Source: Hymenobacter tibetensis (lineage in GTDB: Bacteria > Bacteroidota > Bacteroidia > Cytophagales > Hymenobacteraceae). Taken from it: a stretch of DNA of 64,000 bases. Below the pieces are notes generated by a model. That model was given only the letters and a program-made list of their open reading frames with translations. It was not told the origin of the DNA and made no database searches. Below are positions 9,516-31,302 of this stretch, one piece after another. Where the stretch lies: the NCBI RefSeq assembly GCF_022827545.1, contig NZ_CP094669.1:3872001-3936000 (forward strand), given 5' to 3'. The stretch's first letter is position 1. The number at the start of each line of letters is the position of its first letter. The position numbers and the translations under genes are program-made.

Positions 9516-10114
9516 CAATAGTCACGTACTTCAGTGAAGAGGAACTATCAGTTGTTCCCGGCTTATATAAATCCGCTAAGGCAGTTTGTATTACATCCCT
9601 GTTCAGCTTCTACTTATCAGCTAGTTGGGTTTTGGGTTTGTCCGTGACGAAGGGAGTGAAAGAGCGCACACAACATTTTGGCATTTGTGCAAAAGCCTTA
9701 GGCAGTAGTATGCCTAACAGCTTGTTGTTTAAACGGTGTTATCACTGGTTTGCATATATAGCATCAGTCGCGCTGTAAGCTGCTGGCTGCTTTTCGACTT
9801 GTGCAGTAGGCGTACAACTCGTGCTACACTCGGAAGTCTGCATATTTTTTCGGCCATAGGAAGCGTGTGCTGTGCCTTGCATTTAGCAGATACAGTGCAA
9901 ATATTTAGGTAGCACCACGTAGGGCTTTTGCTGTGCAGATGGGTTAAGTGTCTTGCATTATAAAAGGATGCCTTTTCTCCTATTAGACAAGAGAAGCAAG
10001 CATACCAATGACATCTCCTGCGCTTCCAGGCATTGTGTATCCGTGACACGGCCTTATCCCTAAAACGATCTTCTACTTACCCATTCTTATTCCCACCAAC
10101 CAACCCTCAACACC
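9516..10114. other. non-coding interval upstream of the GH16 gene
   Basis: About 600 bases of lower-GC sequence. Short open frames on both strands show no recognisable protein features. I see no RNA gene. It probably holds the regulatory region of the secreted glucanase. Confidence 0.5.
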
Positions 10115-11557
10115 ATGAAAACCAGTTTACGCTCTTTACTTGGCGCGGTAGCCTGTGTGCTCCTAAGCCACGCCTCAGTGCAGGCTCAGACCTACCAACT
10201 CGTCTGGGCCGATGAGTTCAATGGCAGTATCAGTCCTGATTGGCAGTTTGAAACCGGCGGCGGCGGCTGGGGCAACAATGAGAAGCAATACTACCAAGCG
10301 GCCAATGCTACCGTAGCGAATGGCAATCTGCTTATTACAGCCAAAAAGCAAACGGTCGGGGGCATGCCCTACACTTCGGCCCGCATGATTACCAAGGGCC
10401 GCAAAGAATTCACCTACGGCAGAATGGAGGCCCGCATGAAACTGCCTTTGGGCCAAGGATTGTGGCCGGCCTTCTGGATGCTGGGTGGCAATATCAACAC
10501 CGTGAGCTGGCCGGCCTGCGGCGAGATTGATGTGATGGAGCACATCAACTCGGAAAACAAGACCTATGGTACGCCCCATTGGGACAGCAACGGCCACGCC
10601 GAGTACGGCGGCAGCATCGTAACTACTCCGCAAGACTACCATGTATACTCGGTGGAATGGGATGCTAGTGCTATCCGCTGGTTTGTGGACGGCACGCAGT
10701 TCCACGTCATGAGCATCCTCAACAATGCGGGCAGCACCGAGGAGTTTCATCGGCCCTTTTTCTTGCTCTTGAACCTGGCAGTGGCTGGTAACTGGCCCGG
10801 CCAAACGGTAGACGAAAGCAAGCTACCCGCTACCATGTACGTTGATTATGTGCGCGTGTACCAGAAAACCGGCACCACTCCTACGCCCACTGCCACCCAA
10901 ATTCAGGCGGAAAGCTATAGCTCCATGAACGGAGTGCAGCTAGAGAACTGCGCCGATACGGGCGGCGGCCAAAACGTAGCCTACATCGACGCCAACGACT
11001 GGATGGCGTACAGCAACGTGAACTTCCCTACTTCCGGCAACTACACCATCGAGTACCGCGTGGCCAGCCCGAGCGGCAGCCGCCTATCCGCCGACCTCAA
11101 CGCTGGCTCCACCCAACTGGGCACCGTGACTATTCCGGCTACGGGCGGCTGGCAAAACTGGACTACGGTTTCTCATACGGTGTACGTGAATGCGGGCACC
11201 TACAACTTTGGCGTGTTCGCGCAGGCCGGCGGCTGGAACTTCAACTGGTTGCGCATCACCAAGCAAAGCGGGGCGCGTACGGCAGAAACCACAAACGATC
11301 AGCTTGCTCTTTCACCTTCGCCCAAACAAAGCAGCATAGAGCTTTATCCGAATCCGGTTACAGACCAGCTCACGCTCACCGGAATGACCGATGGACCCAC
11401 CCAAATCAGTATTCTGGACATGCAAGGCCAACAGGTGTGGAGCGGTTCGTACACGGGCAAAGCGCTGAACATTTCGAAACTACAGCCAGGGCTATATAAC
11501 TTGGTGATTATCGACAAGAACCAGAAAAAGCAAGTATCCCGATTCAGCAAACAGTAG
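10115..11557 (+). CDS. secreted GH16 beta-glucanase with CBM6 and type IX sorting tail
   Basis: Hydrolyses beta-1,3 or mixed-linkage glucans outside the cell. The 480 residues run: signal peptide ending near residue 24 (VQAQ); GH16 jelly roll about 28-246 with the catalytic motif EIDVME giving Glu137, Asp139 and Glu142; a Thr/Pro linker; a CBM6-type carbohydrate module about 262-388 (IQAESYSSMNGVQLENC, WMAYSNVNFPTSGNY); and a type IX secretion domain from about 405 (ELYPNPVTDQLTL, KLQPGLYNLVI). The sorting tail predicts export through the type IX system to the surface or medium. It is separated from the SusCD locus by about 9 kb and has its own long hairpin terminator. Confidence 0.93.
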   Translation: MKTSLRSLLGAVACVLLSHASVQAQTYQLVWADEFNGSISPDWQFETGGGGWGNNEKQYYQAANATVANGNLLITAKKQTVGGMPYTSARMITKGRKEFTYGRMEARMKLPLGQGLWPAFWMLGGNINTVSWPACGEIDVMEHINSENKTYGTPHWDSNGHAEYGGSIVTTPQDYHVYSVEWDASAIRWFVDGTQFHVMSILNNAGSTEEFHRPFFLLLNLAVAGNWPGQTVDESKLPATMYVDYVRVYQKTGTTPTPTATQIQAESYSSMNGVQLENCADTGGGQNVAYIDANDWMAYSNVNFPTSGNYTIEYRVASPSGSRLSADLNAGSTQLGTVTIPATGGWQNWTTVSHTVYVNAGTYNFGVFAQAGGWNFNWLRITKQSGARTAETTNDQLALSPSPKQSSIELYPNPVTDQLTLTGMTDGPTQISILDMQGQQVWSGSYTGKALNISKLQPGLYNLVIIDKNQKKQVSRFSKQ

Positions 11558-13047: not shown

Positions 13048-15275
13048 TTACTGCTTCACCACGCTCAGCATACTGGTGCCTTCGGCGGTGCTGATGCGCA
13101 GCACATACAAGCCGGGCCGCAGCTTCTCACCCACGAGTTGTTCGGTTTGGCCGTCGCCTTCCTCCAGGCGCTGGCCGGTTTGGTTGTACACCTCGTAGTG
13201 GAAGTTGCCCTTCACCCGCACCCGGAAAGAACTGGTGGAAGGATTGGGAAACACGGCTGCTCCAATCAGGTTTTTCGTTTGCTTCATTCCGGCTACCACC
13301 GGCATGCCTTCGCCGAGGTAATAGCCAGTATGCGGGGGCTGATTGTAGCCTACGTTTTGCCAGGCAATACTGAGGCGGTACTGCGGATCGTGCATCAGGG
13401 TAGGAATGCGGTAGGCCGTCGGAATGGTGGTGGTGAAAATCAGCAGCTCCTCGTTGTTGGTGTTGCGCCAGATTACTTCCTCGCGCCAGTCGCCGAATAG
13501 GTCGGCGCTGAGGTTGGGGGTGGCTTTGGTGCCGTTGTTGGAACCTGCTCCAAGCGCTGCGGCATTCAGCAGCGTGTTGGTGCGGCCACCCACCCAGTCC
13601 CATTTGTTGATGGTGGTACCATCGAGCTGCTCGCGCAACAGGTCACCGTCCCACCACACCGCGAAGTTGATGGTGTTGGGCTTGGCCGTTGAAACCTGGG
13701 TGCCGGTAGCCGAGTACAAGCCGCCCCGTGTGCTCCACGACTCCGCGCCCCACGTGCGGGGGTCCACGTCCATCGTCACGCCCCGGCCCACGTCGCCTTG
13801 GTTGGCTGCTGGGCCGCCCCAAATCAGGGTGCCGGTACGTGCATCGCGGAAGTCGTTGGGGTTGTTGCCGTACGACGATGGTGATTCGTGTACTGAGAAC
13901 ACCTCCAAGCCTGGCCGCGCAGGGTCCAGATCCGACACGTGCATGGCGTCGCCGTGGCCGCGCCCGGTGGCGTACATACCCCGGCCATCGTCATCGACGG
14001 CGCAAGAGCCGTATATAATTTCATCTTTGCCGTCATCATCAACGTCCGCTACGCTCAGGTTGTGGTTGCCCTGTCCCCTGAAGGCAGCATTGCCGGGAGT
14101 GTTATCGTCGCTGTCGAACTTCCAGCGCTGCGTTAGCTGGCCGTTGCGCCAATCCCAGGCCACCAGCACCGTGCGCGTGTAATACCCGCGGCACATCACC
14201 AGGCTAGGCCGCTCGCCATCCAAATACGCCACGGCGGCCAAGAACCGGTCGATGCGGTTGCCATAGTTGTCGCCCCACACGGCGTTGATTTGCGCCGGCG
14301 TTGGATTGTCGCCGGCAATGGGGTGGCGTTGGGGCTGGTAGGTGTGCTAGCCATCGCCGCGCCCGTTTGCCCATTGAAAATGGTCAGGTACTCGGGACCC
14401 GACAAAATATAGCCGCCCGCATTGCGGTAGTCGGCAGTGGCGTTTCCAATTACGTTCCCTCGCCCATCAACAGTGGCATCCGACGTTTTGCAGGCTAGTT
14501 CGGCCCGGCCATCCCCGTCGAGGTCATACACCATAAACTGCGTGTAGTGGGCTCCAGCCCGAATATTACGCCCCAGGTCGATGCGCCATAGGCGGGTGCC
14601 GTCGAGCTTATAGGCATCCAGAATCACGTTGCCGGAAAAGCCGCTGCTGGCATTGTCGCGGGCGTTGGAGGGGTCCCACTTTACAATGATTTCGTATTCT
14701 CCGTCGCCGTCCAGGTCGCCGGTGCTACAGTCGGCGGGGCTGTAGGTATAGGTGCTGGCACTGGTACCCGTGCCCACTGTTCCGCCGGCGGGCTGTTGGA
14801 GCACCAAGCGCATGTAGTTTTGGTTCCAGAGAGTGGCCACCTCTGAATTGGCCTGCGAACCGCCTCCGTTCTGCACCGCCCGCACGAAGTAGGTGTTGGT
14901 TTTGGTGAAGTCGGCGGTCTGGTCCACCCAGTTGGTGCTGGAAGAAATAGGCGTGCTGTTCAACTTGACGGCCGCTCCCCCATTCTCCTGGCGGTACACA
15001 TCAAATGACACCCACGTGGCATCCGTTGTCAGCAGCCGCCAGCTCACGAAAACCTTGTTATCGTCTTTAACGGCCACGATGCCGCGCTTCAGGGTTTCCA
15101 TCCGCCGGGTGGTGCGGGCGGGGTCAGGAGCTGTTTGCGCCGCCGCCATACCAACAGGACCCAACAAGCAAGCCGCCAACAGTGGTGTACACCAGACCGT
15201 TAGTCGGCCCATGGTTGCTGCTCGTAGGGAAAAGGGGCCATCAACCGATGGTAAGTGAGAAGAGGTTGGACTCAT
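13048..15275 (-). pseudogene. PL11 rhamnogalacturonan lyase, interrupted by a frameshift
   Basis: Cleaves the rhamnogalacturonan-I backbone of pectin when intact. The N-terminal half reads from 15275 (or more likely the ATG at 15212, which gives a good signal peptide) to 14196. It carries the fibronectin-like start and beta-propeller repeats with calcium-type DLDGDG loops and the RNIRAGAHYTQFMVYD signature. The C-terminal half reads 14280 to 13048 in another frame, resuming at WGDNYGNRIDRFLA and ending in a type IX sorting tail (AVFPNPSTSSF, KLRPGLYVLRIS). The frames would join if one base were added between about 14300 and 14345, a region with two GGGG runs on the plus strand. Everything else is well preserved, so the break is recent, a sequencing error, or a recoding site. 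Confidence 0.85.
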
Positions 15276-19704: not shown

Positions 19705-20238
19705 ATGCCAACCATTCGTTCCGCTCAAAACCATGTGGTGGTTCTTAGCAAGCCCGATCTACTCCACTGGCTGTGCGTTGCTCTTCTAGCTGGCGCCTTG
19801 GTGTGGCTCGACCTCTATTACGTGGCCATTCCGCTACTTTTTTTCTGGATGTTCGCTTCTACAGGCAAAACCACATTGGAGATAGACGTAAAAGCGCATC
19901 ACTATCGGACAGGCTCGCAGGTATTAGGCATTCATATAAGCGACTGGCACCCGCTGCCCGAAGCTCAACGCGTTGTTGTTCGCTACTTTTCTGAATATAA
20001 CCTCACTACCACCAGAGAGGGCATCGAAGAAGCGCATCAAAACGCAGAGTTTGTAGTCTTGCTTTCCGTACCAAACGCTTCGCAGGGCTTTATTCTTTTT
20101 CGCCATTTACACCACAAAGATGCCGTGCGTGTTGCCTGCGCGGTAGGAAGCATCTTGCAATTGGAAGTAGTTGAATTCAACCGCCAGCACGAAGCCAGCA
20201 CGATACAAGAGGCGCACCTACTAGATAGCGAAGCGTAG
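19705..20238 (+). CDS. hypothetical membrane protein
   Basis: A 177-residue protein with two hydrophobic segments close together at about residues 18-50 (LLHWLCVALLAGALVWLD and YYVAIPLLFFWMFA), forming a membrane hairpin. A soluble domain of about 125 residues follows, with alternating strands (TTLEIDVKAHHYRTGSQVLG, RVVVRYFSEYNLTT, AEFVVLLSV) that resembles a small beta-sandwich. I do not recognise the family. It is separated from the phosphomutase by a hairpin, so it is probably transcribed alone. Confidence 0.7.
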   Translation: MPTIRSAQNHVVVLSKPDLLHWLCVALLAGALVWLDLYYVAIPLLFFWMFASTGKTTLEIDVKAHHYRTGSQVLGIHISDWHPLPEAQRVVVRYFSEYNLTTTREGIEEAHQNAEFVVLLSVPNASQGFILFRHLHHKDAVRVACAVGSILQLEVVEFNRQHEASTIQEAHLLDSEA

Positions 20239-20530: not shown

Positions 20531-22552
20531 ATGTGCTGCTCCATCAATTCCCCCAAACTTCTTTGCCGGGCGCGTGCTTGGCAATGGCTCTGGCTTCTGA
20601 CCATAGCCCTCTTATCGGCCACTTCAAGCACCGGCGCCCCCGTCGTCGGTTCAGAAAAGCCCATCCGAGTTGACGCCCTCCACGACGAACTCCCGGTTGA
20701 GCTTTCCAACTACAGCGTACTAGAAGACCCCTCCGGACAGCTGACGTTGCGAGACGTACAGCGGCCCCAGCATGCATCGCGCTTTGTGTTGGCCTCACGT
20801 ATAGACCCGACGATGGAACACGTTGGGTCCGCGTATTGGCTGCGCTTAGCGGTGCAGGCTCCGGGGCTGCAACGTCAGCACTGGTACCTAGAACTGTTTG
20901 ATTCTCACCTAAACAACATCACGTTCTACCCGGCTTCCGATACGGAACAGGGCTTGGTACGCACTGGCGCCGACTGGCCTTTTGCCTCGCGGCCCTACAG
21001 CTACAAGAATTTCCTGATGCGCCTGCCGCTTCAGCCCAACGAGTCGCAGACTTACTACCTCCGGCTGCAATCAAATTCCAAAACCAGCTTTCTGGCCCGG
21101 CTACGTACGGAGCGGGGCATCGCAGAGCAATTCCCAACGGAGTACGGGTTGCTAGGCGGCTTCTATGGCATTCTGCTGATTATGGTGGTGTATAATTTCT
21201 GTTTGTTTGTCTTTACAGGCGAGCAAACTTATTTGCGCTACGTGGTATATGTGTTGAGTTGCAGCTTGGTGTTCTTATCGGAAGATGGGCTGGGCTTCCA
21301 ATATTTTTGGCCCGACCAGCCCTTGCTCAACAAAATAGTAGCAGCGGGTTCGCCCCCCCTGCTGCTGCTCTCCTTTGGCTATTACGCCCGCCAGTTTCTG
21401 GACACCCCGCAGCGCCTACCGCAGTATGACCTTTGGCTACGGGCCATTATTCTGCTTAGCGTTGTGGCGCTGTTGCTGGATGCGCTCTGGTGGAAAACCG
21501 ATGACTTAGGCATCGGGCTATACTTATTGCCGTATGGGATGTTGCTTTTGGCCGCACTACGGGTGTGGCAGCGCGGCTTTCGGCCAGCTCGGTTCATTTT
21601 ATTGGCTCACTCGCTGGTGGCGGTTGGCATCTTGTTCCTGATCCTGCGCAAGCTTGGCATCAATACCTTCACTAATACCTACACCGTGTACAGCATGAAC
21701 GCGGCGTTTGTGTTGGAAGTGGTGGTGCTGTCGTATGCCTTGGGCGACAAAATGAAGAGCATTCAGGAGTCGACGCTTAGGGCACAGCATAGCTTGGTGA
21801 AGCAACTCCGCAAAAAGCACGAGGTACAGGAACAACTCGTGGAACAGCTGCGCCAAAACGAAGAGCTGAAAGACCAGCTGAATTCGGAATTGGAAGGCTT
21901 GGTGACCCTACGCACCCAGGAGCTTCAGCAGCAAGGCGAAACCATAGCTGCCCAGAACCGGGAGTTGCTGCAAGCCAACGGGCTACTGGCACTACAGTCG
22001 GCGGCCATCGAAAAACTGAATGCCGAGCTGCAACTGGACCTGCAGAAGGCCCAAACTGCCCGGGTGCTTTCGCAAGAAGTGGACTTCGGGGAGTTCAGCC
22101 AAATCTACCCCGATAAAGACACATGCCTGACCTACTTAGCCGACCTGAAATGGGCCAACGGCTACCAATGCCGCAAGTGTGGACACGACAATTATTGCGA
22201 AGGCCGCGAGGCACATTCGCGTCGTTGTACCCGCTGCCGGTACGTAGAATCGGCTACGGCCAACACGCTGCTTCAGAAGTGTAAGTTCTCTATTGTGAAG
22301 GCATTTTATGCGGTGTTTTTGTTGCATACCCACAAAGGGAATTATTCGGCGCAAGAGCTTTCTCGGGTGCTTGATTTGCGCCGGGCCACCTGTTGGAGCT
22401 TCAGCCAGAAGGTAGCTGACGCCATAAGCCGGCAAACCGCCGAACATCCTGAAGATGAAAGCTGGACCCGTTTGCTGCTAGATGACTCTGGCAACGAGAA
22501 CGACGAAAGCGGCGACGAAGCGGCGGCCCTCGTGACCGACACGAGACATTGA
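20531..22552 (+). CDS. 7TMR-DISM membrane receptor fused to an IS1595-type transposase zinc ribbon
   Basis: A 673-residue mosaic. Signal peptide at about 1-35; an extracytoplasmic 7TMR-DISMED2-like beta domain at 50-195 (YWLRLAVQAPG, WYLELFDSHLNNITFY, YYLRLQSNSKTSF); seven membrane helices at about 206-413; a long coiled coil at 415-510. From about 518 a segment looks like the N-terminus of IS1595/ISL3-like transposases: FSQIYPDKDTCLTYLADLKW, a zinc ribbon with Cys547, Cys550, Cys566 and Cys569, then a helix-turn-helix-like stretch (KAFYAVFLLHTHKGNYSAQELSRVL, RRATCWSFSQKV). There is no kinase, cyclase or DDE domain. DISMED2 modules are proposed to bind carbohydrates, and susC follows on the same strand, so a sensor-regulator role is attractive but inferred. 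The ATG at 20531 is preferred over a TTG at 20519. Confidence 0.88.
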   Translation: MCCSINSPKLLCRARAWQWLWLLTIALLSATSSTGAPVVGSEKPIRVDALHDELPVELSNYSVLEDPSGQLTLRDVQRPQHASRFVLASRIDPTMEHVGSAYWLRLAVQAPGLQRQHWYLELFDSHLNNITFYPASDTEQGLVRTGADWPFASRPYSYKNFLMRLPLQPNESQTYYLRLQSNSKTSFLARLRTERGIAEQFPTEYGLLGGFYGILLIMVVYNFCLFVFTGEQTYLRYVVYVLSCSLVFLSEDGLGFQYFWPDQPLLNKIVAAGSPPLLLLSFGYYARQFLDTPQRLPQYDLWLRAIILLSVVALLLDALWWKTDDLGIGLYLLPYGMLLLAALRVWQRGFRPARFILLAHSLVAVGILFLILRKLGINTFTNTYTVYSMNAAFVLEVVVLSYALGDKMKSIQESTLRAQHSLVKQLRKKHEVQEQLVEQLRQNEELKDQLNSELEGLVTLRTQELQQQGETIAAQNRELLQANGLLALQSAAIEKLNAELQLDLQKAQTARVLSQEVDFGEFSQIYPDKDTCLTYLADLKWANGYQCRKCGHDNYCEGREAHSRRCTRCRYVESATANTLLQKCKFSIVKAFYAVFLLHTHKGNYSAQELSRVLDLRRATCWSFSQKVADAISRQTAEHPEDESWTRLLLDDSGNENDESGDEAAALVTDTRH

Positions 22553-23217
22553 GGAGGGTTGGTACTGTGAAGTTGAAAAACTAGAAAAAATTTATATCGG
22601 GAGTTTATTTTTTTACTTGTTTTTTACCCGTCAAGGGTAGGATGGGCTGATGGGCCATTTGGAACTAATGGCCGCTAAAACTGCACAAAATACGTGTGCT
22701 CTAAGCGTACACATTTACGTGATACGTAAGCGAAAACGCACTTTGCAAACGTTTGGGGCGAGGTTTTCACTTGATTTTTAGAAATAAGGTCGGGTATATT
22801 TGGCTATTCCTACCGCCCCTCATGCCCCACCCCGTTCCTTTCTTCAACTCTTGCAATGTGAGTACCCACTCACCTCTTGCGCGATTACCCTTCCGTTCGC
22901 ACCCACCCCTTCTAATTGTATCCAGCGGGTACGCGAACAATGTTGCAGTGCTTGTCTCTCTTGCTACTGCGCTGTGTAAGGGTATACTCCCAGATGCTAT
23001 CGGGTAGCCTTGCTACGTAGCGTCCAGCTCTACAGTGTTTATCGAAATTGTTTGCCGTGAGCATGCTTGCTGGCTCCCTGTATCTTTTATGCGGAGCTAA
23101 GCACTTACTCACTTTGCCAGTTTGCCTTACCCATTTTTCTCATTATTTGCTTGCATTTCTCCTTTTTGAAAGGAGTCTGCTAAGTGTTTTCAATTCCCAC
23201 ATTCTTTCCCATCACGT
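22553..23217. other. long intergenic leader upstream of susC
   Basis: 665 bases without a convincing gene. It holds a good promoter at 22771-22802, which would give susC a leader of about 410 bases. An 84-codon frame at 22753-23007 has no protein-like features. I did not recognise a known riboswitch. Confidence 0.55.
22771..22802 (+). promoter_or_regulatory. promoter of the SusCD locus
   Basis: TTG at 22771 and TATATTTG at 22795-22802, separated by 21 bases, fit the Bacteroidota -33/-7 pattern. Transcription would begin near 22808. Confidence 0.55.
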
Positions 23218-26200
23218 ATGAATCGTACTTATTACTCGTATCTGGGATTCCGACGCGTAGTACCTCTTGCAGCTTGCGGCTTACTGACTTTGGCTATGGC
23301 TCCTGCGCAAGCGAGCAGTGTAGCAGTGTCTAGCCGTACAGTTGAGGCCGATGTACCAGTATCAGGCCGCGTAACAGGCGAAAAAGGAGAGCCTTTACCC
23401 GGTGTTACCATCATCGTAAAAGGCACCACGCAAGGCATCACCACCAACTCCGACGGGGGCTTTACGCTCAACGCGCCGGAGGGGTCCACACTGGTGTTCA
23501 GCTATGTTGGCTACGGCCGCAAGGAGCTGGCCGTAACGGGCGCCACTAACAGCCTGAACGTAAGCTTGATAGAAGACACCCGGGCGCTGAGCGAAGTCGT
23601 GGTGGTTGGGTACGGCACTCAGTCGCGGGGTAGCGTAACAGGCGCTATTTCATCGGTGGGGGCCGCAGAAATTGTGCGCCAGCCCGTGCCAGATGTCACG
23701 CAGGCCATTCAAGGCAAAGTGGCCGGGGTAACTATTACCTCCGGCGGGGGTGCTCCAGGCGGAGCGGCGGGTACGGCGGTGCGCATCCGCGGTATATCGT
23801 CGGCGGGCCTCAATTCGCCTCTGTATGTAGTGGATGGCTTCCCGCTGCCCACTGGCGTGGACGGCAATGGCAACGCCACAAACAACGAATTGAACGGCAT
23901 CAGCCCCAACGATATCGAATCTATTGATATCCTGAAGGATGCTTCGGCTACGGCTATCTACGGGGTGCGAGCTGCCAACGGGGTAGTTGTAATTACCACC
24001 AAGCGGGGCAAAGCCGGCAAAACCAACATCAACTTTGATGTTTACCGCGGTGTGCAGACACTAGCCCGCAAGCTAGACCTGCTCAACGCCGAGGAGTACG
24101 CTACTATCAACAACGAGTCACTATATGCAGCTGGCAAGCCGCTTGCCCTGGAGAAGCTGCGCGACCCGTCTACGTTGGGCGAAGGCACCGACTGGCAGGA
24201 TTTACTGTTCCGCCGGGCTAAGATTCAGAACTACTCGTTGTCGGCGACTGGGGGCAGCGAGAAAGCGCGCTACGCCTTATCGGGCACCTACTTCCAGCAG
24301 GATGGTATCTTGCTAGGAACTAAGTTCGAGCGGTTTACGCTGCGTGCCAACGGCGACGTGCAGGTAGGCAAAATGCTGAAGCTGGGCAACAGCATCTCGC
24401 TCACCAACCTCAACGACCGCCAGATAACAAGCAACGACGGGGAATACGGAGCCGTGCAGCAACTGCTACGCATGCCCCCTACAGTACAGCCATATCGGCC
24501 GGATGGCTACTGGTACCAGCCCAACAGTGCTTCCGACAACTTCACGGAGGAAAACCCACTGGCTACTTCGCAGCGGGTCAACCAGAAATTCACGCGCAAC
24601 CGGGCCATCACCACGTTCTTCGCCGAACTCGAGCCGCTTAAGGGGCTCCGCTTCCGTACCAACGTAGGTGCCGACCTGATATTCGACAACTTCAACAGCT
24701 TCGCGCCCAAAGGGCCGGAACTTGCGGGCTTCACCCAGCGCTACATTACGGCTGGGGCGCGTGCTACTTCCAGCTACGCTCCTAGCTACCTAATTGAGAA
24801 TACCATCACCTACGATCATCTGTTCGCTGAAAAGCACCAAGTCACTTTCCTGGTGGGTCAGTCGGCGCAGGAGTTCAACTACAGCAACGTAGAAGCGAAC
24901 CGCTCTATGTACCTGCGCAACGACTTGCAGGTAATCAACGCGGGTCCGATCAACGCCCTTCTTACCAATGCTGGCGCTATTGATCCTTCCCGGCGCCTGG
25001 CCAGCTACTTTGGCCGCCTCAACTACGAGTTTAGTGGCAAATACATCTTCCAGGCCACGGCCCGCTACGACGGCTCGTCGCGGTTTCAGCCCGGCGAGAA
25101 GTTCGGCTTCTTCCCTGGAGCATCGGCCGGCTGGCGCATTTCGGAAGAAGGCTTCTTGCAAGGCAACAGCACCATCAGCAACATGAAGCTGCGCGTGGGG
25201 TATGGCCGCGTAGGCAACGAGCTAAACGCAGGTCGTTTTGCCTACCTCTACACCATCAACTTCGGGGCGGTATATCCACTGGGACAAGATGGGGCCATCA
25301 ATACGGGCGGTGCGCCAGTGCGTTTGCGTAACCCTAACCTGCGCTGGGAATACAACGACCAAACCAACATTGGCTTGGATCTGGGCTTCCTCGACAACCG
25401 TTTTGAGGCCACCATTGACCTCTTCAATCGGAATTCGCCGAACCTGATTGCCGGCGTACCTCCATCCTATGTGTCGGGTACGTACGAATCAGTGAATACC
25501 AACGCCGCATCGGCTTACAACCGCGGTATTGACTTCTCGTTCACCTCACGCAACTTCACCGGAGTTGATCAAGCGCTGAGCTGGACCACGACCCTGAACG
25601 CCTCGGCCTACAAAACCAAGCTGGAGTCGTTGGGTGCGGGGGTACCGTACAACGGATTAAGCTCTTTGAGCGGCGTTATTGTGCGCTACGACGTGAACCA
25701 GGCATTCGGCTCGTTCTACGGGTATGTGAAAGAGGGATTGTTCCAGACGCAGTCGGAGGTAGATGCTTCGCCGAGGCAGCCTGGCGCAGGCCCTGGCGAT
25801 ATTCGCTACCGCGACCTGAACGGCGACAACGTTATTACGGATGCTGACCGCAAGTTTATTGGCAATCCGAACCCAAACTTCACGTTCGGCATCACCAACA
25901 ACTTCAACTACAAGAACTTTGATTTAAGCGTCTTCATCCAAGGTTCGCAGGGCAACGACGTGTACAACCTTAACCGCTACATCACGGAAAGCGCGTTGTA
26001 CAGCACCACCAACGGTACCACCCGCGTGTTGAAGCGCTGGACCGGCGAAGGCACCAGCAACGACGTGCCACGAGCCATCAACGGTGACCCCAACAACAAC
26101 CTACGGGTATCCACTCACTTCATTGAGGACGGCTCCTACGTGCGCCTCAAGAACCTAACGCTCGGTTATACGCTACCCAAAACGCTCATGAGCCGCATTT

Positions 26201-26355
26201 CGGCCACCCAGATGCGCGTGTACTTCACGGCCCAGAACTTAGCCACCCTCACCAAATACACCGGCTACGACCCTGAGGTAAGCATTAGCGGTGTCGACCG
26301 GGGTATCTACCCGCAAACACGGGTGTTCATGGGCGGCCTGAACATCGGGTTCTAA
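23218..26355 (+). CDS. SusC/RagA-family TonB-linked outer membrane transporter
   Basis: Imports oligosaccharides across the outer membrane with its SusD lid, powered by TonB. The 1045 residues include a signal peptide ending near ASSV (residue 33); a carboxypeptidase-regulatory-like domain at about 45-120 (VSGRVTGEKGEPLPGVTIIVKGTTQG); a plug domain with the SusC marker SEVVVVGYGTQSRGSVTGAIS near 125 and SPNDIESIDILKDASATAIYG near 225; and a beta-barrel ending in the aromatic C-terminal residue of LNIGF. It is the first gene of a run of five on the same strand. No ECF sigma or anti-sigma gene is nearby, so control is not the usual SusC-linked type. Confidence 0.95.
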   Translation: MNRTYYSYLGFRRVVPLAACGLLTLAMAPAQASSVAVSSRTVEADVPVSGRVTGEKGEPLPGVTIIVKGTTQGITTNSDGGFTLNAPEGSTLVFSYVGYGRKELAVTGATNSLNVSLIEDTRALSEVVVVGYGTQSRGSVTGAISSVGAAEIVRQPVPDVTQAIQGKVAGVTITSGGGAPGGAAGTAVRIRGISSAGLNSPLYVVDGFPLPTGVDGNGNATNNELNGISPNDIESIDILKDASATAIYGVRAANGVVVITTKRGKAGKTNINFDVYRGVQTLARKLDLLNAEEYATINNESLYAAGKPLALEKLRDPSTLGEGTDWQDLLFRRAKIQNYSLSATGGSEKARYALSGTYFQQDGILLGTKFERFTLRANGDVQVGKMLKLGNSISLTNLNDRQITSNDGEYGAVQQLLRMPPTVQPYRPDGYWYQPNSASDNFTEENPLATSQRVNQKFTRNRAITTFFAELEPLKGLRFRTNVGADLIFDNFNSFAPKGPELAGFTQRYITAGARATSSYAPSYLIENTITYDHLFAEKHQVTFLVGQSAQEFNYSNVEANRSMYLRNDLQVINAGPINALLTNAGAIDPSRRLASYFGRLNYEFSGKYIFQATARYDGSSRFQPGEKFGFFPGASAGWRISEEGFLQGNSTISNMKLRVGYGRVGNELNAGRFAYLYTINFGAVYPLGQDGAINTGGAPVRLRNPNLRWEYNDQTNIGLDLGFLDNRFEATIDLFNRNSPNLIAGVPPSYVSGTYESVNTNAASAYNRGIDFSFTSRNFTGVDQALSWTTTLNASAYKTKLESLGAGVPYNGLSSLSGVIVRYDVNQAFGSFYGYVKEGLFQTQSEVDASPRQPGAGPGDIRYRDLNGDNVITDADRKFIGNPNPNFTFGITNNFNYKNFDLSVFIQGSQGNDVYNLNRYITESALYSTTNGTTRVLKRWTGEGTSNDVPRAINGDPNNNLRVSTHFIEDGSYVRLKNLTLGYTLPKTLMSRISATQMRVYFTAQNLATLTKYTGYDPEVSISGVDRGIYPQTRVFMGGLNIGF

Positions 26356-26382: not shown

Positions 26383-27930
26383 ATGACTATCTCTAAATTC
26401 ACCTGCGGCGCCTTCCTGCTGTCGTTAGGATTACTGACTGGCTGCGGCGAAAAGTTTCTGGAAGAAACTCCTTCCGACCAGGTTACGGACGTAAACTTCT
26501 ATCAAACTCAGCAGGATGCTATTCAGGCCACTACAGCTGCCTATAGCGAACTGACCAAGGAAGGCCAGTACAACCTGTCGATGTGGGCCTTTGATATCAT
26601 GGCCGATATATCGGTGACGGGCGGCGACGACGGCAACGACGGCATTGAATACAAGCAGCTCGAAGCCTTCAACATTCCTACCACCAACATCGTGGCCAAC
26701 CGCCTGTGGGGCGGCAGCTTCATCGGGATACAGCGGGCCAACCTGGTACTGCAGAAGGTGCCGGACATCGCCAACATGGACCCCGACATCAAGAAGCGCT
26801 GCTTGGGCGAAGCACAGTTTCTGCGGGCCAAATACTACTTCGACTTGGTACGGGCCTATGGGGATGTTCCGCTGTTCACAGCACCACCTGCCAACCAGGC
26901 AGCTGTGAGCATTCCGCGCACGCCGGCTGCAGAAGTGTACAAGCAGATCGAGCAGGACCTGATTGCTGCTATCGATAACCTGCCGCCATCCTACAGCGGT
27001 GCTGATTTGGGCCGTGCTACCAAGTGGGCCGCCACGGGCCTGCTAGCCAAAGTATACATCACGGAAGCTTCCCAAGGCGACGCCAGCAAGAAACCACTGG
27101 CCGCCCAGCGTGCCCGCGAAGTAATCAACAACTCGGGTAAAACACTGCGGACCAACTACGGCGACAACTTCAAGGTAGCCACCGAAAACGGCGCCGAGTC
27201 GCTGTTTGAAGTACAGTACGTGAACGGCCGCAACGAGTATGAGCGCAACAACGTGGGCTCTGCTATGAACGAGTTCTTCGGGCCCCGCGGTGCCAACCAA
27301 ACGCCCGGCAGCGGTTACGGTTTCAACATTCCAGAGCCCGATTTCGTGAACGGCTACGAGGAAGGCGACCAGCGCAAAGCCGTTACTATTTGGGTGCCCG
27401 GCGACACGTACCCGGATGGCGGCAAGCAGTCGGCACGCGCCACTGGCTCGCCCTTCGGCTACAACTGCAAAAAGTGGTTTGTAGGCAAAGTGAACACCAA
27501 TATCTGGGATTCGGGCCTCAACGTACCGGTGCTTCGTCTGGCGGAAATGTACCTGATTGTAGCCGAAGCGCTGGGGCCAAACACCGAGGGCTTGGAAGCC
27601 ATCAACAAGGTGCGGCGCCGGGCTTTCGGCCTCCCCATCAACACGCCCTCTGCTCGTGACCTGACCAGCGCTACCGCTGACTTCACAGCAGCCGTGTTGC
27701 GCGAGCGGAAGTATGAGTTGGCGTTCGAGTTCGACCGGTGGTTTGACTTGAAGCGCTACCACGGCACCCAGTACGGCCTGATACCCGTCATGACGGCGCA
27801 GGCCAACTATCTGCGCAGCCTGAACCTGGGCATCGTGCGCGGCATCCCAACCGAGAAAAACCTGGTACTGCCTATTCCGCAATCGGAATTGGATGCCAAC
27901 TCCGGCCTGGTTCAGAATCCTGGCTACTAA
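26383..27930 (+). CDS. SusD/RagB-family glycan-binding lipoprotein
   Basis: The surface lid of the SusC transporter that captures glycan. It has 515 residues, with a lipobox LTGC at about residue 21, the typical early FLEETPSDQVTDVNFY segment, TPR-like helices through the middle (LRAKYYFDLVRAYGDVPLF is a family hallmark near residue 150) and the RERKYELAFEFDRWFDLKRYH signature near 445. It ends with VLPIPQSELDANSGLVQNPGY, the normal SusD ending. It starts 27 bases after susC, so the two are co-transcribed. Confidence 0.95.
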   Translation: MTISKFTCGAFLLSLGLLTGCGEKFLEETPSDQVTDVNFYQTQQDAIQATTAAYSELTKEGQYNLSMWAFDIMADISVTGGDDGNDGIEYKQLEAFNIPTTNIVANRLWGGSFIGIQRANLVLQKVPDIANMDPDIKKRCLGEAQFLRAKYYFDLVRAYGDVPLFTAPPANQAAVSIPRTPAAEVYKQIEQDLIAAIDNLPPSYSGADLGRATKWAATGLLAKVYITEASQGDASKKPLAAQRAREVINNSGKTLRTNYGDNFKVATENGAESLFEVQYVNGRNEYERNNVGSAMNEFFGPRGANQTPGSGYGFNIPEPDFVNGYEEGDQRKAVTIWVPGDTYPDGGKQSARATGSPFGYNCKKWFVGKVNTNIWDSGLNVPVLRLAEMYLIVAEALGPNTEGLEAINKVRRRAFGLPINTPSARDLTSATADFTAAVLRERKYELAFEFDRWFDLKRYHGTQYGLIPVMTAQANYLRSLNLGIVRGIPTEKNLVLPIPQSELDANSGLVQNPGY

Positions 27931-27963: not shown

Positions 27964-28782
27964 ATGAACTATACCTTGAACAAAGCAGCACTGGTCTTAC
28001 TGGCCGGCTCGCTGCTACTCACGGCCTGCGACAAGGAAGACGAAGGCTCGTTGGACGGCCCCAAGCCCACAGCAAGCTTCACGGCTACTGCACCCAAAGT
28101 GGTTGGCCTGACTTCGGAAGTAACCTTCACCAGCACCAGCACCGATGCGTTTCTCTATCAGTGGGATTTCGGTGACGGAACCATTGGCTCGGGGCAGACC
28201 GTCACGCACGCTTACACCCGGGGCGGTACCTTCAAAGCCAAGCTAACGGCTGTGGGCCGTGGCGGGGCTACTCCGTCGGAAACGCAGGATGTCACCATTG
28301 CTTCCACGCTCAACCTTGTCAACCAGCTGCTCACGGGTGGCTCGTCGCGCACCTGGAAGCTCGACAACGCAACTGCTGCCCCTATAGTGGTGGGCACGGA
28401 AGCAGCGCCCACCACGTACTTTCCGGGCGTAGCGGCAGGTGATTTGCCAGCGTGTCAGTCGGATGATGAGTACACCTTCTCAACCAGCAACACCTTCACC
28501 TACGACGCCAAGGCCGAGACGTTCTACGCTGACAGAATGAATTACAGCTGTCAAGCTCCCCTTTCGGGCACCTCGCCGTTTGTATTTGGGGCGGCCACCG
28601 GAACTGGGCTAGCGCAGTTTACATTATCACGGGCTGGGGCTTTCATTGCGGCCACCGATGCTTCCCTGACGGAGCGCGTGTACCGCATACTAAGCATCGA
28701 CAACCAGAAAATGACCCTGCGCGCCGGCAGCGGCCAGAATGGCGGCACCGTGTTTACTATCAAGATGGTAGTTAAGCCTTAG
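27964..28782 (+). CDS. PKD-domain surface lipoprotein, SusE-like position
   Basis: A 272-residue lipoprotein with lipobox LTAC at about residue 21 and a PKD domain at about 33-115 (ASFTATAPK, YQWDFGDGTIGSG, HAYTRGGTFKAKLTAV). The C-terminal half (SSRTWKLDN near 136, DEYTFSTSNTFTYDAK near 185, RVYRILSIDNQKMTLRAG near 240) is a lipocalin-like beta domain often seen in Bacteroidota polysaccharide loci. Its place directly after susD suggests a surface glycan-binding protein. Ligand specificity is not visible. Confidence 0.85.
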   Translation: MNYTLNKAALVLLAGSLLLTACDKEDEGSLDGPKPTASFTATAPKVVGLTSEVTFTSTSTDAFLYQWDFGDGTIGSGQTVTHAYTRGGTFKAKLTAVGRGGATPSETQDVTIASTLNLVNQLLTGGSSRTWKLDNATAAPIVVGTEAAPTTYFPGVAAGDLPACQSDDEYTFSTSNTFTYDAKAETFYADRMNYSCQAPLSGTSPFVFGAATGTGLAQFTLSRAGAFIAATDASLTERVYRILSIDNQKMTLRAGSGQNGGTVFTIKMVVKP

Positions 28783-28828
28783 GAAGCTTCCTAACCGCTG
28801 CTTGCTCACTACCATTAAGCGTATTCCG

Positions 28829-29701
28829 ATGACCTATCCCACCATGTGGGTGCGGCAGAACCTGACGCTCGGAGCCGGCCTCTTGCTGGCTCTGAGCGTA
28901 AGTTCCTGCACCGAAACCAAGACCAAGAATATTCCGGCGCCCACGCCCGTTACGCCCGTCGTGAACGAAGAGGCCCGCGACTACGGCCAGTACACCAACC
29001 TGGTATGGAGCGACGACTTCAATAGCAACACCCTCGACCAAACCAAGTGGACGTACGAACTGGGTGGCGGTGGCTGGGGCAACAACGAGTTGCAGAGCTA
29101 CACCAACACGCCCGAAAACGTATTTCTCGACGGCAGCCACCTCGTGATTCGGGCGCGCCAGCAGGCTGGCAGCAATGTCTACACCTCTGGGCGCCTCATT
29201 ACCAAAGGCAAGCAAAGCTTTCAGTTTGGCCGCATTGATGTACGGGCAAAGGTTCCGAAAGGCAAAGGCGTATGGCCCGCCATCTGGATGCTAGGCGCCG
29301 ACATCGACCAAAACAACTGGCCGGTCTGCGGTGAAATCGACATCATGGAACTGCGCGGCAGCAAGCCCCGGGAAATGCTTTCGACCATGCACTTTGGCAA
29401 CAGCACGGCTACCCACCAATACAAAGGCACCACCAAGCAGCTCACCGCCGACTTGTCTGATGAATTTCACGTGTTTACGGTGGTGCGCAGCAGGAACCTG
29501 ATGCGTTTCTTCCTGGACGGGCAGGAATACTACCGGTTCACCAACGCCGATGTAGGCTCGTTCTCCTATCCCTTCAACAACCCGTTTTTCGTGATTTTGA
29601 ACGTAGCCGTGGGGGGAAACTTCGACGGCAATCCAGATGGCTCTGCTGTTTTTCCGCAGCAAATGGAGGTGGATTACGTGCGCTACTTCCAGTATCAATA
29701 A
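28829..29701 (+). CDS. GH16 beta-glucanase lipoprotein
   Basis: A 290-residue laminarinase-like enzyme. The N-terminus starting MTYPTMWVRQ has a hydrophobic stretch and a lipobox-like SVSSC, so it is probably anchored in the outer membrane. The GH16 domain fills about 55-290, with WSDDFNSNTLDQTKW, GGGGWGNNELQSY, the catalytic EIDIME motif (Glu169, Asp171, Glu174) and the terminal QMEVDYVRYFQY. It has no CBM or type IX tail. It follows the PKD lipoprotein closely and is the likely endo-acting enzyme that makes oligosaccharides for SusCD. An ATG at 28802 is also in frame. Confidence 0.93.
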   Translation: MTYPTMWVRQNLTLGAGLLLALSVSSCTETKTKNIPAPTPVTPVVNEEARDYGQYTNLVWSDDFNSNTLDQTKWTYELGGGGWGNNELQSYTNTPENVFLDGSHLVIRARQQAGSNVYTSGRLITKGKQSFQFGRIDVRAKVPKGKGVWPAIWMLGADIDQNNWPVCGEIDIMELRGSKPREMLSTMHFGNSTATHQYKGTTKQLTADLSDEFHVFTVVRSRNLMRFFLDGQEYYRFTNADVGSFSYPFNNPFFVILNVAVGGNFDGNPDGSAVFPQQMEVDYVRYFQYQ

Positions 29702-29807: not shown

Positions 29808-29872
29808 AGCAGGCACCCTATGTCCTGGCCGTGCGTCGTTGTGTTGCTCCAGCCCGACTTTTATTTCTCGCT

Positions 29873-30736
29873 ATGAAATCCCCTTTACCCCGACCGATGC
29901 TATCGGCTGCCATGGGTATGCTGCTTCTGATTTGTACTTCTAGCACGGCCACATTTACTGCAGCTTCTGCCTCTAAGCCCTCCAAATACTCTTTCAAAGA
30001 GTTGCTGTGGAGCGACGAGTTCAACTACACCGGGCTACCCGACTCCGTAAAATGGACCTACGATGTAGGCGGCAGTGGTTGGGGCAACAAGGAAGCGCAG
30101 TTCTATACCAAAGCCCGCCGTGAAAATACCCGCGTTGAAAAAGGACATCTACTTATTGAGGCGCGGCGTGAAGCCCTGAACCCACAGAACCCCTACACTT
30201 CCGCACGGCTGGTGTCAAGGGCCAAAGGTGGAGGCAGCCTCACGTATGGCCGGGTGGAAGTACGGGCCCAGCTGCCAGCCGCTCGTGGCACCTGGCCCGC
30301 CATCTGGATGCTCCCCGACGACTGGAAGTACGGCGACAAAAGCTGGCCCGCCAACGGCGAAATAGACATTATGGAATACGTGGGTTACCGGCCCGCCGTG
30401 GTGCAGGCCTCCACGCATTGCAAGAAGTATTACTTCCGCACCAACAACCAGAAAACCGATTCTATCAGTGTGCCTACCGCCACAACGGCATTCCATGTAT
30501 ATGCCATTGAGTGGACGCCTGAAAGTATTACGGCCTTGGTTGATAATAAAGCCTACTTCACCAGCCCGAACGAGCACAGCGGTTGGGAAGCCTGGCCTTG
30601 GGACCACCCATTTCACGTGTTGCTGAATGTGGCGGTCGGGGGCGAGTGGGGCGGCAAAAAGGGTATCGACGATACCGCGTTTCCGCAGCAGATGCTCGTG
30701 GATTACGTGCGCTTCTACAAGTTAAAGCAACAGTAA
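29873..30736 (+). CDS. second GH16 beta-glucanase of the locus
   Basis: A 287-residue GH16 enzyme started at MKSPLPRPM (an upstream ATG at 29831 is in frame but adds a poor leader). A signal-peptide-like N-terminus (MLLLICTSSTATFTAASA) precedes the catalytic domain at about 45-285: LLWSDEFNYTGLPDSVKW, GGSGWGNKEAQFYT, catalytic EIDIME (Glu163, Asp165, Glu168) and QMLVDYVRFYKL. Two Cys residues may form a disulphide. It is clearly divergent from the first GH16 enzyme, so it may differ in product or linkage. It closes the glucan locus. Confidence 0.92.
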   Translation: MKSPLPRPMLSAAMGMLLLICTSSTATFTAASASKPSKYSFKELLWSDEFNYTGLPDSVKWTYDVGGSGWGNKEAQFYTKARRENTRVEKGHLLIEARREALNPQNPYTSARLVSRAKGGGSLTYGRVEVRAQLPAARGTWPAIWMLPDDWKYGDKSWPANGEIDIMEYVGYRPAVVQASTHCKKYYFRTNNQKTDSISVPTATTAFHVYAIEWTPESITALVDNKAYFTSPNEHSGWEAWPWDHPFHVLLNVAVGGEWGGKKGIDDTAFPQQMLVDYVRFYKLKQQ

Positions 30737-30837: not shown

Positions 30838-31302
30838 ATGGGCCGCCAAAAACAGTTTTTCCGGTTGTCGGCCGCTGAGCAGCAAGAGTTGCAGCACTAC
30901 TTGCAACAAGAGCAGCTTGTGCGCCGACAAGTTAACAGGGCACAAACCCTGCTCGATTGGCACGCCGGGTACTCGGCCGCCGAAACAGCGCAGCGCCTAG
31001 CCATGACCGAAGGCCGGGTGTATGCCTTACGACGAGCGTATCAGCGCCAGGGTCTCACCTCGTTCCTGAATACACATCCGCAGGGTGGTGCCCCCACCAA
31101 ACTAACGCCCACCGTAGAAGCAGCCTTGCTGGCGTTGCTTTCGCGTCGCACTTCCGATCCGGCCCGGCACTGGACCCTGCGCGAGTTGGCTGCTTACTTG
31201 GTGGACAAGGGCCACGCCAAATCAATTTGCCCAGTTACCGTCGGCAAGGCGTTGCAACGGCTCCAAACACTGCTTGTTCCCGTCTCTGATACCGACAAAT
31301 AA
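30838..31302 (+). CDS. orphan IS630-type helix-turn-helix protein
   Basis: A 154-residue basic protein that looks like the DNA-binding N-terminus of IS630-family transposases without the DDE catalytic domain. Seen: RRQVNRAQTLLDWHAGYSAAETAQRL with EGRVYALRRAYQRQGLTSFL (first HTH, about 30-80), the linker PQGGAPTKLTP, and a second winged unit with HWTLRELAAYLVDKG and ICPVTVGKALQRL (about 115-148). The frame ends cleanly at a stop with no terminal inverted repeats or DDE remnant within the next 130 bases before a terminator. It is either a domesticated DNA-binding protein or an old truncated element. Confidence 0.75.
   Translation: MGRQKQFFRLSAAEQQELQHYLQQEQLVRRQVNRAQTLLDWHAGYSAAETAQRLAMTEGRVYALRRAYQRQGLTSFLNTHPQGGAPTKLTPTVEAALLALLSRRTSDPARHWTLRELAAYLVDKGHAKSICPVTVGKALQRLQTLLVPVSDTDK

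Follow-up and report, generated by a model that had tools for sequence, protein, structure and literature searches.

SusR of Bacteroides is described as a membrane protein that joins a periplasmic sensor to a cytoplasmic DNA-binding end and activates the sus genes, and its predicted sites are given as direct repeats with a spacing of 67 or 77 bp (PMC3878776). The same account presents HTCS proteins as glycan-sensing membrane regulators of PULs (PMC3878776). For proteobacterial genomes, 7TMR-DISM receptors with a ChiS-family DNA-binding domain appear in a figure legend (PMC8092284, Fig. 5 legend), and a paper in which 7TMR-DISMED2 is named reports a response of the Pseudomonas protein SagS to glucose-6-phosphate (PMC8544897).

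The receptor analysed here is encoded in the window, that is, the whole 64,000-nucleotide stretch of Hymenobacter tibetensis DNA under study. Judged by its domains, it would resemble SusR as portrayed in PMC3878776 in combining a periplasmic sensor, a membrane part and a putative DNA-binding end in one protein, and differs from it in having a DISMED2 sensor with seven helices and an IS1595 ribbon-HTH output. Like HTCS, it is a putative glycan-sensing membrane regulator beside SusCD; unlike HTCS as outlined there, the window protein and P0178, a propeller protein described below, have no kinase, receiver or AraC domain. It belongs to the same receptor class as the ChiS-type proteins and ends, as they do, in a (here putative) DNA binder, although the output is unrelated, to judge by the name that PMC8092284 gives to the domain. 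The preliminary description set the transposase-derived output apart from the kinase, cyclase, GGDEF and HTH outputs of known DISM receptors. The transposase origin stands, whereas a DNA-binding end on this receptor class was already known from the ChiS type (PMC8092284). Its membrane-held regulator likewise holds, as a prediction, for this receptor, but membrane-held PUL regulators were known from SusR (PMC3878776). What is new is the transposase origin of the receptor output; among the titles and abstract openings listed in searches of open-licence PMC papers, none describes a 7TMR-DISM receptor fused to an IS1595 module.

Receptor domains and the transposase-like module

The receptor gene and its domains are as follows:

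20531..22552, + strand: receptor gene (673 aa), ATG at 20531 and frame open up to the stop ending at 22552; conserved in 30/37 Hymenobacter genomes
20711..21103, + strand: 7TMR-DISMED2 periplasmic sensor, residues 61-191 (Pfam PF07696, E 1.7e-28)
21143..21751, + strand: seven membrane helices (7TMR-DISM_7TM), residues 205-407 (Pfam PF07695, E 4.6e-43; helices in the AlphaFold model)
21752..22072, + strand: coiled-coil linker, residues 408-514 (model helices 388-479 and 484-514; low confidence at ~461-520)
22112..22243, + strand: IS1595-type zinc ribbon, residues 528-571, Cys547/550/566/569 (Pfam PF12760, Zn_ribbon_IS1595, E 4.9e-6)
22280..22450, + strand: helix-turn-helix part of the module, residues 584-640 (NCBIfam NF033547; model helices 588-600, 607-614 and 618-638)

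Pfam and NCBIfam matches agree with the union of a 7TMR-DISM receptor (DISMED2, seven helices) and an IS1595-type segment that was first noticed in the sequence, and the coiled coil proposed between the helices and the module coincides with the long helices 388-479 and 484-514 of the AlphaFold model, at low confidence around residues 461-520. A TTG four codons 5' of the ATG at 20531 is a possible alternative start. Structure comparisons with the model show the sensor to be folded like the periplasmic domain of RetS. The model is confident in the sensor, the membrane helices and the module (pLDDT 83-94 per 10-residue block across 521-640) and poor in the linker (43-69 for the blocks of 461-520), so that the placement of the module relative to the membrane part is not predicted. 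The coiled coil fits the signalling-helix idea as introduced in PMC1592074. No kinase, cyclase, GGDEF or PP2C output was matched by Pfam in the receptor, the ribbon-HTH standing in that place instead as a putative output; histidine kinase, receiver and AraC domains had no Pfam match at E up to 1, and PADLOC returned no match.

The match to the IS1595 ribbon profile came out barely over the cut-off, with PF12760 scoring 26.8 bits in the whole protein against a Pfam threshold of 25.4, and 29.6 bits when the C-terminal piece was scanned alone. Positions 2-59 of the 215 in the NCBIfam IS1595 transposase model match residues 584-640 (E 2.2e-6) at 27.7 bits, far below the family cut-off of 75; in IS1595 transposases this segment lies behind the ribbon and ahead of the DDE domain. 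The absence of a DDE domain, as claimed in the preliminary description, was borne out: none is reported in the 673-aa frame, PF12762 has no match in the receptor, and the reading frame ends after the module. Because this nuclease domain is absent, we rejected the reading of the receptor as an IS1595 transposase.

Both ribbon and HTH are conserved among the fusions, and the four cysteines singled out at the start (Cys547, Cys550, Cys566 and Cys569) are invariant in 46 full-length fusions selected by hand for spread. The module has the zinc ribbon and HTH of IS1595-family transposases: a profile built from 40 modules, one of them stand-alone and 39 taken from fusions, aligned with the DDE-bearing transposase L097 (truncated at a contig end) at 42% identity across 127 columns and with a probability of 99.9%. 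Unlike those transposases, the receptor-fused module has no DDE domain. These sequence comparisons show that the module derives from an IS1595 transposase, of which it keeps the DNA-binding half and not the DDE nuclease. No solved structure matched the module profile (best E 0.25), and Foldseek and VIA-align, queried with the whole model, returned lists filled by the sensor/membrane domain in which the module fold was barely covered.

Three further sensor proteins (P0164, P0178 and P0181) end in the same ribbon-HTH module, with the ribbon of P0178 at 24.7 bits, slightly under the Pfam cut-off. They carry a propeller + Y_Y_Y sensor, which we take to be of the HTCS-like kind. In the module tree, a single group (98/93) inside the transposases takes in the 51 fusions together with the three propeller proteins and a stand-alone protein of 137 aa, and the propeller proteins are nested within the Sphingobacteriales fusions; the tree holds 82 hand-chosen rows and only 144 columns, with long branches and unsettled bootstraps. 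We lean towards a single domestication of an IS1595 transposase in Bacteroidota, which would have yielded a portable DNA-binding output that came to sit behind glycan sensors of two unrelated types, 7TMR-DISM and propeller/Y_Y_Y. Its products would form a further class of PUL regulators beside SusR, HTCS and ECF-sigma, working from the membrane on an operator with an AAGYGTAY core that perhaps itself came from transposon ends. If so, a membrane receptor would have taken over as its output the part of a transposase that binds DNA, with the nuclease left behind. TldR proteins descend from TnpB. As RNA-guided transcription factors, they are a precedent for a transposon protein turned regulator (PMC13418256); unlike TldR, which is RNA-guided, of another protein family and without a receptor, the module here sits on a receptor.

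Several relatives of the module stand outside the fusions. The stand-alone 137-aa protein placed in the fusion clade is encoded at L081:1194-1607 without a receptor. Nine relatives of 294-332 aa in genome G219 (L088-L096), in varied neighbourhoods, carry the closest module outside the fusions; the three scanned have a weak to moderate DDE_Tnp_IS1595 match, and by eye the acidic catalytic positions look altered relative to L097. A conserved stand-alone protein of ~154 aa with ribbon and HTH and no DDE domain occurs in one genus of the same class (L075, L076, L077 and L083) and is perhaps another domesticated IS1595 module.

Distribution of the fusion and its neighbouring genes

The fusion reaches residue 636 or beyond in 30 of the 37 Hymenobacter genomes (G000-G036). 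Six further genomes have no receptor, and in G003 it ends near residue 505, followed by an unrelated tail; the module was not found in the 19-kb locus. In G014 two stops are reported within the match, yet an open 673-aa frame spans the receptor. Protein searches with the module regions gave 248, 320 and 1066 matches, and the names among those listed (120 per search) include Hymenobacter, Pedobacter, Chitinophaga, Mucilaginibacter, Desertivirga and Arcticibacter. The largest set comprises 1066 proteins, limited to 0.55-1.75 times the query length, that carry the module at E up to 1e-3; both 7TMR-DISM domains were present in 117 of the 120 matches listed. Database names among the matches listed are '7TM diverse intracellular signaling', 'hypothetical' and 'chromosome partitioning protein ParA', the last given to many receptors perhaps on account of the coiled coil. 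Across the phylum, 41 of 296 sampled genomes had a module match at 1e-6; nine of these (the window's own included) carry it within an open frame of 634-718 aa, and the remaining frames are mostly transposase-sized. A Pedobacter-like genus gave a strong match in 27/40 genomes, two of them with only ~300-aa frames and one (G387) with only fragments. A search for the same fusion in other genomes thus found it widespread, whole in 30/37 Hymenobacter genomes and present in Pedobacter, Mucilaginibacter and Chitinophaga, and an assembly join or an oddity of one genome was rejected.

Downstream of the receptor, the window encodes a SusCD locus:

23218..26355, + strand: SusC (NCBIfam TIGR04056, Pfam)
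26383..27930, + strand: SusD (Pfam)
27964..28782, + strand: PKD-domain protein (Pfam)
28802..29701, + strand: GH16 enzyme (Pfam)
29831..30736, + strand: second GH16 enzyme (Pfam)

The position directly upstream of a SusCD locus, as the preliminary description had it, recurs across the genus. Among 40 Hymenobacter loci with a receptor more than 50% identical (L020/L044 and L025/L039 are duplicates), 39 have a same-strand SusC no more than 3 kb downstream, and in 28 of these it is no more than 1.2 kb away; only L062, where the receptor of G003 is truncated, departs from this. Longer receptor-SusC gaps hold one gene between, a GH3 gene in both loci scanned (L102 and L103). A SusD orthologue accompanies the receptor in 29/30 genomes with a whole receptor and in 0/7 without, at a limit of at least 61% identity that was set after inspection of the list (the next group stands at 59% and below); the receptor genome lacking it, G028, has an assembly that is 82% complete.

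In other families, SusC comes directly after the receptor in L051, L070, L072 and L073 and two genes after it in L068 and L071, and in L026 of Pedobacter caeni it follows one opposite-strand gene. L049 is divergent from a GH9 gene and L054 from a GH64-GH5 gene, L052 stands after a GH3 gene and L053 before a sulfatase. The 20 Pedobacter-type fusions, taken from 38 fusion or fragment matches, have SusC within ~1 kb on the same strand in 14 cases and no SusC within 3.5 kb in six. Glycan genes adjoin most of the loci examined, the exceptions being those six together with L050 and L056, where no clear glycan link was found among the neighbours; for Hymenobacter and most other loci, we rejected neighbours unrelated to glycan use.

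Other genes near the receptor were noted in passing. A 177-aa gene without Pfam or NCBIfam match lies ahead of the receptor (19705-20238), and a small conserved gene occupies the same place in other loci (cluster C5, 17 loci, the window's not among them). At the PUL end, a 154-aa frame (30838-31302) has several HTH matches (PF13565 and others) and looks transposase-like. Judged by eye, two abutting frames on the minus strand (13048-15275) resemble a single secreted gene of the polysaccharide-lyase type with a possible frameshift.

Candidate operators and their regulon

In the gap that separates the receptor stop from the following operon, we identified a candidate operator, GTGTGNNNTAAGYGTAYA, and a second site ahead of a glucanase gene elsewhere in the window. 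We take TAnnTTTG to be the -7 element of Bacteroidota promoters.

22693..22711, + strand: candidate operator CGTGTGCTCTAAGCGTACA, the window's best match, at 29.3 bits, to the 32-site matrix, which includes this site
22795..22802, + strand: TATATTTG, -7 box, starting 93 bp after TAAG
9798..9816, + strand: second candidate operator CTTGTGCAGTAGGCGTACA, second-best matrix match at 21.8 bits (next 10.5), ~300 bp before the GH16-CBM6 gene
10115..11557, + strand: GH16-CBM6 gene, candidate regulon member (Pfam)

The core TAA[GA][CT]GTA is present in 32 of 37 receptor-PUL gaps (the 40 loci minus L020, L025 and L062), compared with a mean of 1.4 and at most 5 in shuffles, and was not found in the gaps of L038, L041, L046, L047 and L102. 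It occurs also where another gene precedes SusC (L021, L023, L036, L040, L044 and L103). A TAnnTTTG box starts 92-94 bp after TAAG in all 32 core-bearing gaps (0.14 expected). G000, G002, G007 and G030 each have a single copy of the two-part form TAAGYGTAYA-N13-17-TAAGYG, in every case within the receptor-PUL gap; the form is absent from 13 other genomes, six of them receptor-bearing. The operator pattern and thresholds were drawn up after inspection of the gaps; the species are related, several gaps are alignable, and the Fisher p values (7.8e-7, 1.2e-5 and 3.3e-4) ignore kinship.

The strict pattern KGTGNNNTAAGYGTAHA gave 48 sites in 27 of 30 receptor-bearing Hymenobacter genomes (no match in G012, G020 and G035) and none in the seven without a whole receptor; its reversed control matched five times across all 37 genomes. 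By position, 17 sites fall in the receptor gap and 31 elsewhere. When each site was paired with the longest frame on its strand that begins no more than 1.2-1.5 kb away, 19 of the 31 precede glucanase genes (7 GH16, 8 GH5 and 4 GH30, one of the last, L123, at 1.4 kb); L127 and L128 were assigned only by their sequence starts, which resemble L118 and L126. About 12 (eleven or twelve) precede nothing glycan-related: one lies before an MFS transporter, two before DNA polymerase III, three 1.1-1.3 kb ahead of a GMC oxidoreductase, and six before unrelated or no recognised genes. A TAnnTTTG box stands behind 11 of the 31, at 71-72 bp (five), 82 bp (two) or 93-94 bp (four).

A stricter pattern at 0-1 mismatch finds three sites in the genome to which the window belongs, all at beta-glucanase genes: the window PUL, the GH16-CBM6 gene and a GH64-CBM6 gene 1.75 Mb away; at up to two mismatches the 17 matches compare with 7 for the reversed control, so further own-genome sites are largely chance. 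The GH16-CBM6 and GH64-CBM6 sites have no exact TAnnTTTG box at the operator spacing, and a degenerate AATATTTA was seen by eye 93 bp past the 9798..9816 site. No operator site precedes the window's phosphoglucomutase gene. The same genome has a paralogous SusCD locus, L141 (G000:C1:533000-546000), whose SusD is 59% identical and which includes a LacI-type regulator and an MFS transporter; none of the sites in its 13 kb scores above 13 bits. G003, with its truncated receptor, keeps a GH16-CBM6 gene (67%) and has no strict site. Among the seven genomes with no whole receptor, four (G004, G016, G017 and G027) have no such GH16 match, so the absence of sites there says less.

Among Pedobacter-type receptor-SusC gaps, the core AAGCGTAT is found in 12 of 14 (shuffles: mean 0.09, most 2), in seven of them as two direct copies 91-92 nt apart and in one as two copies 76 nt apart; because many of these gaps are alignable (66-88% over stretches), they are not independent. 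Such paired, widely spaced direct copies recall the SusR sites predicted in PMC3878776, unlike the strict Hymenobacter site, which is not a clear long-spaced repeat. The pattern GGTNYTNAAGCGTATY has 21 matches, in 14/25 fusion-bearing genomes (G387, with its fragments, counted among them) and 0/15 without the fusion, against two for the reversed control; by position, 18 of the 21 adjoin a fusion gene, partly by construction. L158 is the only one of the six SusC-less Pedobacter-type fusions with the core. The f19 fusions L051, L071, L072 and L073 adjoin SusC and have no core, and their recognition region differs (for example, LGTNTVWAF vs LRQGTCWSF). Two AAGCGTAT-like copies each occur in L026 (upstream of the receptor), L068 and L070. 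Across the other 13 fusion loci (these three, f19 and others), the motif was rejected, its frequency being at chance level (2/13 downstream and 2/13 upstream).

Proposed function and alternative readings

We consider it quite likely, from genome comparison, that the receptor is a one-component regulator which, held in the membrane, activates transcription for the use of beta-1,3-glucans of the laminarin type. Glucan oligosaccharides or glucose would bind DISMED2, for which the reported glucose-6-phosphate response of SagS offers a ligand lead by analogy (PMC8544897). The coiled coil would pass the signal to the modules, which would pair and grip the operator with the protein still in the membrane. 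The module is predicted to read GTGTGNNNTAAGYGTAYA ~94 bp before the -7 box of the SusC-SusD-PKD-GH16-GH16 operon, contacting the operator from one face of the DNA helix, and once bound would raise transcription. Scattered glucanase genes are predicted to respond likewise: GH16-CBM6 and GH64-CBM6 here, and GH5, GH16 and GH30 in other species. As a lead, GH16, GH64, GH30 and GH3 together point to a beta-1,3-glucan substrate, and a Hymenobacter GH16 endo-beta-1,3-glucanase has been characterised (PMC11480075). The DNA-binding membrane regulator of the SusCD locus that the preliminary description envisaged is supported by the candidate operator at fixed promoter spacing, by the glucanase genes behind further candidate sites and by the lack of sites in receptor-less genomes. 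If true, this would add a regulator family, with a candidate operator and regulon, to the PUL biology of environmental Bacteroidota, and one would have to ask how sites scattered over the chromosome are served by a protein that is kept in the membrane.

The receptor might instead control the PUL while another factor binds the conserved site and the module contacts that factor or polymerase. Receptor and PUL are lost together (SusD in 29/30 vs 0/7), and since receptor-less genomes are also without the PUL, co-occurrence cannot tell which factor binds the site; TGTG-rich sites are, moreover, similar to those of other families. We nevertheless regard this reading as unlikely, given that the AAGYGTAY core goes with the module in two orders and is absent beside the f19 fusions, whose recognition region differs, and that neither the paralogous SusCD locus nor G003, with its truncated receptor and retained GH16-CBM6 gene, has a site. 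Slightly less likely still is a repressor that sugar releases from the operator. The joint loss of site and receptor fits either sign of control, but the distance from site to -7 box is 71-94 bp and changes by roughly one helical turn at a time (71-72, 82 and 93-94), and activation fits such a placement upstream of the promoter elements better than repression.

Zinc ribbons often bind proteins, and the basic excess of the module is modest (19 K+R vs 14 D+E in the first 130 residues), as would suit a module that is past DNA binding and serves protein contacts or zinc sensing; we give this little credence, as ribbon and HTH are both kept and a DNA site travels with them. A functionless transposase remnant joined by accident would match the ribbon score barely over the Pfam cut-off and is hardly credible for a fusion kept in 30/37 Hymenobacter genomes and in other orders with invariant cysteines. 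An activator held in the membrane is the reading that we prefer.

The descent of the predicted operator from transposon ends is a lead only, with weak statistics. The flanks of 13 transposase-like genes have no consistent terminal repeat. Near 10 transposase-like genes, AA[AG][CT]GTA occurs in 2/10 upstream flanks, as expected by chance, and in 4/10 downstream flanks, a count reached by 14/500 shuffles. Separately, the possible element ends of L088, L095 and L096 share ATAAAAYGTAAT, which is close to the TAARYGTAAT core of some Hymenobacter loci.
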